NCBI GenBank assembly: GCA_902596065.1
Contig: CACJSL010000009.1
Location: 1-34,444 of the forward strand
Direction of reading: 5' to 3'
From: an uncultured Alphaproteobacteria bacterium
Lineage (GTDB): Bacteria; Pseudomonadota; Alphaproteobacteria; HIMB59; GCA-002718135
DNA length: 34,444 bases
Shown here: piece by piece, positions 16,048-23,925 of the stretch
Layout of the letters: each line of letters starts with the position of its first letter
How positions within the stretch are numbered: position 1 is the stretch's first letter
The notes under the pieces: model-generated
Told to the model about the DNA's origin: nothing
The model's database searches: none
The model's input: only the letters and a program-made list of their open reading frames with translations
Translations under genes and position numbers: made by a program

Positions 16048-16641
16048 ATGAAATTTTTATTTGATTTAGGTGGAGTGTTTTTTGATTGGGATCCTAAATT
16101 TTTTTTTACAAAAATAATTTCTGATAAAGATGAGATGGATTTTTTTTTAACAAAAGTTTGTAATGATGAATGGAATTTAGCCCAAGATTCAGGTCGTAGT
16201 ATTGAAGATGGAGAAAAAGATATTATAAAAAAATTTCCTGAATATGAAAATCTTATAAGGCAATACTACCCAAATCATAGAAAAATGATCAAAGGAACTT
16301 TTCAATCTTCAGTTGATATTTTGGTAAAATTAAAACAAAATAATTATGAATGTTTTGTTTTATCTAATTGGTCCTCTGAAACATTTATAGACATTCCTAA
16401 AGAATTTAAATTTATGAATAATTTTGATGGCTTATTAATTTCTGGAGAAGACAAACTTGTTAAACCTGATCCTAAAATTTATTTATTAGCTATAGATAGA
16501 TTTAATTTAGATCCAAAAAATACAGTATTTATTGATGATAAGTTAGTAAATATTAATGCTGCTAAAAAACTTGGATTTAAAACAATACATTTAACTAATC
16601 CTAATATAATTGAATCTGAGATAAATAAATTTATAAAATAG
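16048..16641 (+). CDS. HAD-family hydrolase (HAD-IA, YihX/haloacid-dehalogenase-like)
   Basis: FLFDLGGVFFDWDP, LSNWS, KPDPKIYLLA, FIDDKLVNINAA. Confidence 0.9.
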   Translation: MKFLFDLGGVFFDWDPKFFFTKIISDKDEMDFFLTKVCNDEWNLAQDSGRSIEDGEKDIIKKFPEYENLIRQYYPNHRKMIKGTFQSSVDILVKLKQNNYECFVLSNWSSETFIDIPKEFKFMNNFDGLLISGEDKLVKPDPKIYLLAIDRFNLDPKNTVFIDDKLVNINAAKKLGFKTIHLTNPNIIESEINKFIK

Positions 16642-16717
16642 AATAAATTTATTGAGCAGAGAAGTTTACTAGAGGAATACTTCTTTAGGAGGAAATAATA
16701 TGAAACTCTCTGCTCAC
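16641..16717 (-). ncRNA. Candidate LacI-controlled small RNA with anti-Shine-Dalgarno loop
   Basis: Deduced RNA 5'-GUGAGCAGAGAGUUUCAUAUUAUUUCCUCCUAAAGAAGUAUUCCUCUAGUAAACUUCUCUGCUCAAUAAAUUUAUUC. It has a 13-bp stem with one bulge (GAGCAGAGAGUUU / AAACUUCUCUGCUC), and its loop carries two CU-rich anti-SD motifs. A promoter with a LacI-family operator lies immediately upstream. Confidence 0.5.
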
Positions 16718-16723
16718 TTAAAT

Positions 16724-16752
16724 AATATAACTAAAACGTTTTGGGGTATCAA
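16724..16752 (-). promoter_or_regulatory. Promoter with embedded LacI-family operator, driving the candidate sRNA
   Basis: Minus strand TTGATA-CCCCAAAACGTTTTAGT(17)-TATATT. Operator CCAAAACGTTTTAG differs at one position from the perfect palindrome at the agl promoter. Confidence 0.6.
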
Positions 16753-16761
16753 AATATGAAC

Positions 16762-16810
16762 GAATCGGTAATATTTCTCATCTATTTATGATTAGTAAAT
16801 ATACCGATTC
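16762..16810 (-). terminator. Long hairpin 3' of the agl operon (terminator or 3'-end stabiliser)
   Basis: GAATCGGT(A)ATATT ... AATATACCGATTC, 13 bp with one bulged A, just downstream of the ATPase stop (16829); no strong T run. Confidence 0.55.
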
Positions 16811-16828
16811 TATTAATTATTGTTATTA

Positions 16829-17908
16829 TTATTTAAAAGCTTGGTTACTGCTATCAAATAATTGACAACGTGAAGCTGTGAAACCAACTTTTACAGTATC
16901 GCCAACTTTAATATTAGAGTCACCTTCTGTCTCTACAACGAGAGGTTCACCATCTTTTTCTAAATATAGAAATGTACCAGAACCAAGTTTTTCCACTACA
17001 AAAACTTTGCTTTCCCAGCTTGCATCACCATCTTGATTAACTAATAAATGTTCAGGCCTAATACCTAAGGTAACTGAATCACCATTCGATGAATTTGAAG
17101 AAGTTTTTGGTATTGTAATTTTGGATGTTCCAAAAATATCTATTTCTGTAGAGTCATTCGTTGAACTTAAGATCTTGGAGTCAACAAAATTCATTTTTGG
17201 TGATCCAATAAATCCTCCTACAAAAAGATTTGATGGATTACTATATAATTCCATAGGAGAGCCTTTTTGTGAGACTATGCCTTCATCTAAAACAACTATA
17301 TCATCTGCTAGTGTCATTGCTTCAGTTTGATCGTGAGTTACATAAATCATTGTTGCATTAAGTTGATCATGTAATTTAGCTAGTTCAACACGCATTTGAA
17401 CTCTAAGAGCTGCATCAAGATTTGATAAAGGCTCATCAAATAAGAAAACTTTTGGTTTTCTAGTTATAGCTCTACCAATAGCTACACGTTGTCTTTGACC
17501 TCCAGAAAGTTGCTTTGGTTTTCTTTGAAGATATTCTTCAATTTGCAAAATCCTCGCAGCTTCTTGTACTCTTTCATTTATTTCATCTTTTGATCTTTTT
17601 TCTAATTTTAATCCAAAAGCCATATTGTCAAAAACTGTCATATGTGGATATAAGGCGTATGACTGAAACACCATTGCAATATTTCTTTGTTTAGGAGGAA
17701 GATCATTAACGACTTCTCCATCAATAGAAATTGTTCCCGAATTAATATCTTCTAATCCTGCAATCATTCTTAACATTGTTGATTTTCCACACCCACTTGG
17801 GCCAACTAAAACAGTAAAAGATTGACTTTTTATATCAAGAGAAATGTCTTTAATAACATGCACATCTCCATAATATTTATTTATAGTATTAATATTTATA
17901 TCTGCCAC
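16829..17908 (-). CDS. aglK: Sugar ABC transporter ATP-binding protein (AglK/UgpC/MsmX type)
   Basis: Walker A GPSGCGKST, LSGGQRQRVAIGRA, Walker B FLFDEPLSNLDA, C-terminal regulatory domain. Likely GTG start at 17908 (AAAGGAGGATGAAGTGGCAGAT) rather than 17935. Confidence 0.85.
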   Translation of the reverse strand: MADININTINKYYGDVHVIKDISLDIKSQSFTVLVGPSGCGKSTMLRMIAGLEDINSGTISIDGEVVNDLPPKQRNIAMVFQSYALYPHMTVFDNMAFGLKLEKRSKDEINERVQEAARILQIEEYLQRKPKQLSGGQRQRVAIGRAITRKPKVFLFDEPLSNLDAALRVQMRVELAKLHDQLNATMIYVTHDQTEAMTLADDIVVLDEGIVSQKGSPMELYSNPSNLFVGGFIGSPKMNFVDSKILSSTNDSTEIDIFGTSKITIPKTSSNSSNGDSVTLGIRPEHLLVNQDGDASWESKVFVVEKLGSGTFLYLEKDGEPLVVETEGDSNIKVGDTVKVGFTASRCQLFDSSNQAFK

Positions 17909-17972
17909 TTCATCCTCCTTTGAGCGATCTTTCAAGCAATTTTAGTTTATTCCAATATTGATTTAGAAGCAA

Positions 17973-22826: not shown

Positions 22827-22855
22827 ATATTTTACCAAAACGTTTTGGTTGTCAA
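22827..22855 (-). promoter_or_regulatory. agl operon promoter with LacI-family operator
   Basis: Minus strand TTGACA-ACCAAAACGTTTTGGTA-AAATAT (alternative -10 TAAAAT with 15-nt spacer); 16-bp perfect palindrome ACCAAAACGTTTTGGT at 22834-22849. Confidence 0.85.
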
Positions 22856-22902
22856 TTGATTATATTTAAAATATGGATATATGTGTTAGTAAATATTATT
22901 TT

Positions 22903-23925
22903 ATGGATATTCGAAAATTAGCAAAAAAACTAAATTTATCAATTACAACTGTTTCTAGAGCTTTAGGTGGTTATTCAGATGTTAGCGAAACTACTAGAAA
23001 AAAAGTAATTAAATATGCTAAAAAATATAAATATTCGCCAAATCCAAATGCTAGTAGTTTAGCTTCCGGCAAATCAAACACCCTTGGATTTGTTATTCCT
23101 CTTTATGGTCTTAATTCTAATACTTTGAACCAAGCTTCTTTTTTTGAATTTATAGCAGGAATGTCAACTAAAATTCATTCTGAAAATATTCAATTTTTTA
23201 TGATGTTTGCAAATAATGAAAAAGAAGAAAAAAATGCTTATGAAAAATTAATTCATGTCCAAAAAGTTAATAAAATTATTTTACATAATATAAAGATAAA
23301 AGATTCAAGAATAGATATGTTAAAAAAAAATAAAATAAAATTTGTTGCATGGGGTAGAACTCAAGGGTTGAATAATCATTCTTGGGTAGATTTAGATAAT
23401 GAAGAAAGTGCAAAGGTAATAATGCAATATTTAATTGAAAAAAATCATAGACACATAGCTTATGCAAATATTGCGGAAAATTATAATTTTGCCTTTCAAA
23501 GAAAGCAAGGTTACCTTTCTTCTCTTAAAAAAAATAAAATAAAATTTAATGAAAATTATTATATATCGATTAAGAATGAAGATCCTGATCAAAGTGCTTC
23601 AGCTATTAAAAAAATGTTAAATAAATATTCTAAAATTACAGCTATAATATGCTCTACTGAATATTCTGCTGTTGGCGCAATTAAGGCTTGCAATCAATTA
23701 AATAAGAAAATTGGAAAAGATATATCTATTATTACTTTTGATGGCCCAGTTGTTTCTACAATAGCAAATCCTTCTTTAACTGCTATAACCCATGAAAGAA
23801 AAAAGCTAGGTCAAAAAGCTATAGAAATATTAACTGATATGGATAAAAATAATAAAACTTATACCTATTTAGCTAAAGCAAATATAATTGATAGAGGATC
23901 TGTTTGTAAATTAAAGAAAAAGTAA
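22903..23925 (+). CDS. LacI-family transcriptional regulator (AglR-like)
   Basis: MDIRKLAKKLNLSITTVSRALGGYSDVSETTRKKV HTH, periplasmic-binding-protein-like effector domain; divergent from the agl operon. ATG at 22903 preferred over 22873. Confidence 0.92.
   Translation: MDIRKLAKKLNLSITTVSRALGGYSDVSETTRKKVIKYAKKYKYSPNPNASSLASGKSNTLGFVIPLYGLNSNTLNQASFFEFIAGMSTKIHSENIQFFMMFANNEKEEKNAYEKLIHVQKVNKIILHNIKIKDSRIDMLKKNKIKFVAWGRTQGLNNHSWVDLDNEESAKVIMQYLIEKNHRHIAYANIAENYNFAFQRKQGYLSSLKKNKIKFNENYYISIKNEDPDQSASAIKKMLNKYSKITAIICSTEYSAVGAIKACNQLNKKIGKDISIITFDGPVVSTIANPSLTAITHERKKLGQKAIEILTDMDKNNKTYTYLAKANIIDRGSVCKLKKK

Follow-up and report, generated by a model that had tools for sequence, protein, structure and literature searches.

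In enterobacteria, Spot 42 and SgrS are small RNAs tied to sugar status, and GcvB silences substrate-binding proteins (SBPs) for amino acids and peptides. In Rhizobiales, AbcR1 and AbcR2 (alpha-r15) carry two distinct anti-Shine–Dalgarno (anti-SD) motifs in unpaired regions, the reference motifs being aSD1, CUCCUCCC, in the loop of the 5′ hairpin and aSD2, UUCCCCUC, between the stem-loops; their targets include the periplasmic binding proteins through which ABC transporters take up amino acids, with AapJQMP repressed and aglE also targeted (PMC8844928). NfeR1 and the alpha-r14 ('cuckoo') RNAs display anti-SD motifs in hairpins and have SBP mRNAs as validated targets (PMC8844928, PMC10746234); the defining feature of alpha-r14 is a set of three hairpins that all carry CCUCCUCCC (PMC10746234).

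The stretch of DNA analysed here (the window, 34,444 nucleotides from an uncultured alphaproteobacterium) probably encodes an RNA that follows the same strategy without being homologous: an AbcR-like anti-SD sRNA that would repress the mRNAs of amino-acid and peptide SBPs, with sugar co-control in some lineages. An earlier note on this sequence had been reminded of AbcR, and the likeness holds for the two anti-SD motifs, would extend to ABC-transporter binding proteins as predicted targets, and does not hold for sequence or architecture. Rfam, which includes the AbcR (alpha-r15) covariance model, gives no match, and the motifs differ from the AbcR reference motifs, being UUUCCUCC and AUUCCUCU, both within one closed hairpin. 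AbcR adjoins lsrB and targets aglE, whereas the present RNA adjoins the agl operon and is predicted to spare aglE. Like the alpha-r14 RNAs it exposes its anti-SD motifs in a hairpin, although in one instead of three, and CCUCCUCCC is absent from the element. No Rfam similarity to Spot 42, SgrS or GcvB was found either, and regulators and setting are different, the present RNA having an operator of LacI type and sitting at the agl locus. If the target prediction is right, the RNA would work like the AbcR and alpha-r14 RNAs while belonging to neither group.

The candidate lies between convergent genes, the ATPase gene at the end of the agl operon and, on the opposite strand, a HAD hydrolase gene. 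The operon encodes a binding protein, two permeases, a GH4 glycosidase and the MalK/UgpC-type ABC ATPase AglK (16829–17935, minus strand). A hairpin predicted by folding (16762–16810, minus strand), with counterparts in the same place in relatives, separates aglK from the sRNA promoter and is the probable operon terminator. In each of the 52 loci examined the element directly follows the 3′ end of aglK, and the next gene beyond it is HAD in some loci; in the others a glpD-like gene stands between the element and HAD. Judged by this synteny, the constant partner of the candidate sRNA is the ATPase gene aglK. The GH4 gene has been lost or replaced in the main g6 clade (L216, L225, L226), which keeps aglK, the operator of the agl promoter and the sRNA. 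Co-occurrence of GH4 with the sRNA was discarded as uninformative, because the sister family (f2) has close GH4 genes without the sRNA and many sRNA-bearing genomes of the window's own family (f1) have distant GH4 genes only.

The core of the RNA (16654–16715, minus strand) is defined by covariance-model match, alignment and covariation, and consists of a closing stem, P1, whose loop holds both of the CU-rich motifs pointed out earlier. The 5′ arm GAGCAGAGAGUUU (16703–16715) and the 3′ arm AAACUUCUCUGCUC (16654–16667) pair with one bulge, and the minus-strand hairpin differs from shuffled sequences by z = -4.0; the earlier note had the transcript begin with this one-bulge stem, which does fold but begins at 16715. 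Across 19 distinct sequences, 95.3% of the pair cells of this structure are paired, with 14 double-change cells distributed over five pairs; none of 500 shuffles reached the covariation score, and structures slid along the alignment are only 43–58% paired. RNAalifold supports the outer stem and prefers a different inner helix, and therefore only P1 is secure. Motif 1, UUUCAUAUUAUUUCCUCC (16688–16705), is near-invariant in the alignment and is the likely targeting region. Motif 2, GUAUUCCUCU (16671–16680), is conserved in most homologues; a degenerate copy in the same place in G004 keeps UAUAAUUUCCUCC and the stem core and has no motif 2, which may be secondary since it is lost in this most diverged homologue. 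After P1, an AT-rich hairpin, AAUAAAUUUAU / AUAAAUUUAUU (16623–16653, minus strand), overlaps the HAD stop codon and may form the 3′ end, as judged from the fold of the extended RNA; the whole transcript would measure about 65–95 nt.

A DNA search recovered the element from 52 of 100 related genomes, and a covariance-model search of the order from 89 of 162, always in one copy and always in f1, with none detected in f2. Among 385 genomes from across the class, the sole matches were the genome of the window and one other genome of its family. When named genomes were scanned for the pattern, nearly all matches were single-cell genomes and MAGs of marine Alphaproteobacteria, 'Pelagibacteraceae bacterium AG-337-I02' and MarineAlpha5_Bin5 among them, and from names, general knowledge and literature we take the sRNA-bearing group to be related to AEGEAN-169/HIMB59. 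Two Lachnospiraceae contigs (L171, L188) match the loop pattern exactly, probably by chance, and fall short of the stem criteria. Rfam has no match at gathering score, and up to E = 10 only chance eukaryotic or viral models; phage records contain no match to the element. The papers searched neither describe this RNA nor mention regulation by small RNAs in the marine lineage concerned. That the element is a real, new and family-restricted structured RNA can be held with high confidence.

The loop indicates what such an RNA might do. The complementarity of motif 1 spans an entire translation start, from the SD through spacer and AUG to codon 2, with UUUCAUAUUAUUUCCUCC set against GGAGGAAAUAAUAUGAAA; the earlier reading of a generic anti-SD loop was correct as to the anti-SD character but stopped short of this full extent. 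In six f1 genomes, the start-codon sites with at most two mismatches to the loop complement belong mostly to SBP genes, namely SBP_bac_3 (aapJ-like), SBP_bac_5 (dppA-like), OpuAC (ProX-like) and another SBP_bac_5, in a search that was pattern-based and covered few genomes. When the spacer was permuted as a control, few matches in f1 fell on start sites (one TRAP SBP, rplN and one dehydrogenase). An exact 16-nt trans target, AGGAGGAAATAATATG, was not found in f1 genomes, where the sequence, if present, occurs once, at the sRNA itself. In f2, the family without the sRNA, some SBP genes bear the same start motif (18 nt in L299); the motif is therefore partly a strong-start consensus, the enrichment of SBP genes was dropped as proof of targeting, and the case for targets relies only on the contrast between orthologues.

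This contrast is specific to lineage. The dppA-like start has 17–18 nt of contiguous complementarity in most f1 genomes (11–13 nt in G018 and G034) and 8 nt in the f2 orthologue, which is 84% identical. For the aapJ-like gene the values are 17 nt in g1 and G034, 12–13 nt in other g6 genomes and 8–9 nt in f2. In G005, whose loop has changed, dppA pairs over 13 nt with its own loop and over 10 nt with that of g1, one possible co-change. Long complementarity is missing from the more diverged aapJ-like paralogues of g2, g3 and g5. These groups (L288–L293; G007, G005, G004) have two adjacent aapJ-like genes, one with a weak start and the other with GGAGAAAATACATATG.

The most serious competing explanation takes the RNA to be generic, an anti-SD RNA or a decoy for ribosome-binding sites with no particular targets, its long SBP matches being just the common strong-start consensus. 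The loop can indeed pair with any GGAGG site, and the f2 starts mentioned above show that such motifs arise where no sRNA is present. A generic RNA, however, does not account for the difference between f1 and f2 orthologues of the aapJ-like and dppA-like genes, nor for conservation that reaches beyond the anti-SD to the anti-AUG and codon 2, and aglE, an SBP gene with GGAGG, goes unmatched, with 5–8 nt of complementarity in f1 and f2 alike. This explanation appears unlikely. An anti-start sRNA is the probable alternative: it probably binds mRNAs of ABC-transporter binding proteins for amino acids and peptides (aapJ-like and dppA-like, possibly ProX-like) at their starts and would thereby block ribosome entry, with no effect on aglE, the local gene for a sugar-binding protein.

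The promoter bears on whether the RNA is an independent transcript. On the minus strand, as the earlier note had it, a -35 element TTGATA (16752–16747) and a -10 element TATATT (16729–16724) stand 17 nt apart, with a LacI-type operator, CCAAAACGTTTTAG (16744–16731), in the spacer. A single mismatch separates this operator from CCAAAACGTTTTGG, the perfect palindrome of the agl promoter (22835–22848); the supposed identity of layout between the two promoters extends to the palindrome, but the agl -10 is poor at a 17-nt spacing. The product of a LacI-family gene (22873–23925, plus strand) presumably binds both sites. In relatives a -10-like hexamer peaks 6–8 nt upstream of the stem, and it has one and the same offset in 35 of 43 distinct promoters.

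An improbable reading is that the element is part of the aglK or agl mRNA, a 3′-UTR or terminator-like structure giving a processed sRNA or affecting mRNA stability, and not a separate transcript. Its invariable position right after aglK, kept in G005 even though the remaining agl operon is not adjacent there, would be expected of such an element; the hairpin standing between aglK and the sRNA, the -10 at a fixed distance from the stem and the operator at the sRNA's own promoter all speak for an sRNA transcribed from its own start just after the operon.

Sites with at most one mismatch to the operator number three in the 1.05-Mb assembly and two for the reversed-pattern control, so on the scale of the genome such a site by itself could be due to chance; what convinces is that relatives have it in the corresponding position. 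Every site within one mismatch of CCAAARCGYTTTGG in 17 large loci (220 kb) is at a sugar-operon promoter or at this sRNA. The third site of the assembly, again CCAAAACGTTTTAG (L033:1501–1514; G000:C1:46094–46107), may be a chance occurrence; it lies between a gene for an ABC permease and an ORF resembling a Fur-type regulator.

An operator lies near the sRNA in 19 of 78 distinct promoter regions. It sits in the spacer, at offset -29, in the window's genus, L005 and L205, and elsewhere it is found at -56 to -58, upstream of the -35. A classical repressor would not be expected at about -56, where an activator, or a role other than steric hindrance, would fit. One locus (L219, G059) has a perfect operator at +68, past the 5′ end of the sRNA and not at its promoter. 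The main g6 clade, G005 and G007 have none at the sRNA; the agl-promoter operator is retained in G008 and G007, and G005 has none within the stretch examined. Genomes of f2 (L224 of G060 and others) have the agl operon, the LacI gene and a perfect operator, with no detectable sRNA after aglK. Since most sRNA promoters are without an operator, control by the local LacI protein would be confined to certain lineages. The earlier note had proposed to look in related genomes for a conserved operator, stem covariation and an invariant CU loop, and saw the RNA as linked to a local sugar regulator: stem covariation and motif 1 are borne out among relatives, but the operator is a minority feature and motif 2 is missing from G004, and the proposed regulatory link would hold in some lineages, the window's included. 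There, and in the 19 regions, a palindromic operator at a promoter is shared with the regulator's own operon, the sequence signature of a LacI-type regulon, and LacI control in the window's lineage, though not across the family, is quite likely.

The strand of the RNA was read from base-pair substitutions. In the outer nine pairs of 26 distinct cores there are 19 G-U and no A-C pairs if the element is taken as minus strand; taken as plus strand, the same positions give 19 A-C mismatches. A plus-strand leader or small ORF (AGGAGG, ATG, MKLSAHLNNITKTFWGIKI) in the 3′ region of the HAD or glpD transcript has in its favour a perfect SD and ATG at 16687–16702. The G-U bias nevertheless selects the other strand, the upstream neighbour on the plus strand varies between HAD and glpD although the element stays, and the encoded peptides run from 1 to 34 codons in differing frames, are unconserved and lose their ATG in some lineages, so this explanation is highly improbable and the small ORF was rejected. 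Because of the G-U bias, the unconserved plus-strand ORF and the -10 at fixed spacing, the RNA is most likely encoded on the minus strand and starts close to the stem. Comparative genomics thus gives strong support to the short minus-strand sRNA with an anti-SD loop that had been proposed from one sequence, through stem covariation, G-U bias, the fixed -10 and distribution.

Where glpD flanks the element, a long hairpin is predicted in which the stretch following P1 pairs with motif 2 and the second half of P1, and its stability exceeds that of P1-keeping folds by about 5–18 kcal/mol; the hairpin is absent from the window's genus, and in the main g6 clade UUUUUGUUU comes after it. In a number of loci (L014–L031, L006, L009–L011) a long inverted repeat spans the 3′ half of the sRNA and the glpD stop codon and excludes P1, and its arms differ between two lineages yet still pair. 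Such an alternative hairpin could be a terminator or a switch. The repeat, reaching as it does the glpD stop codon, might suggest a cis-acting device for convergent transcription, an antisense RNA or bidirectional terminator facing the 3′ end of the HAD or glpD mRNA, but it is missing from the window's genus, G005 and G007, where loop and stem are kept, and the loop is conserved whatever the neighbouring gene, which leaves this the least probable explanation of all.

With the trans-acting, base-pairing sRNA as the preferred reading, the operator in the spacer would, in the window's genus, release the RNA upon agl induction, and sugar would thereby switch off amino-acid and peptide uptake. Sugar use is described as the distinguishing trait of the clade (PMC10308909). 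Extended to the family, a carbon-source switch in AEGEAN-169-type bacteria, running from a sugar repressor through an RNA antisense to SBP starts to the shutdown of nitrogenous-substrate uptake, and perhaps gated by the second fold in glpD-flanked lineages, can be put forward tentatively, with the balance somewhat against it. If true, this would be an independent case of the AbcR and GcvB strategy, carried out by an RNA without sequence relation to either, and a conserved RNA that ties a sugar operon to the uptake of amino acids and peptides would offer a concrete mechanism, open to testing, by which a small-genome bacterium could set priorities among its food sources.
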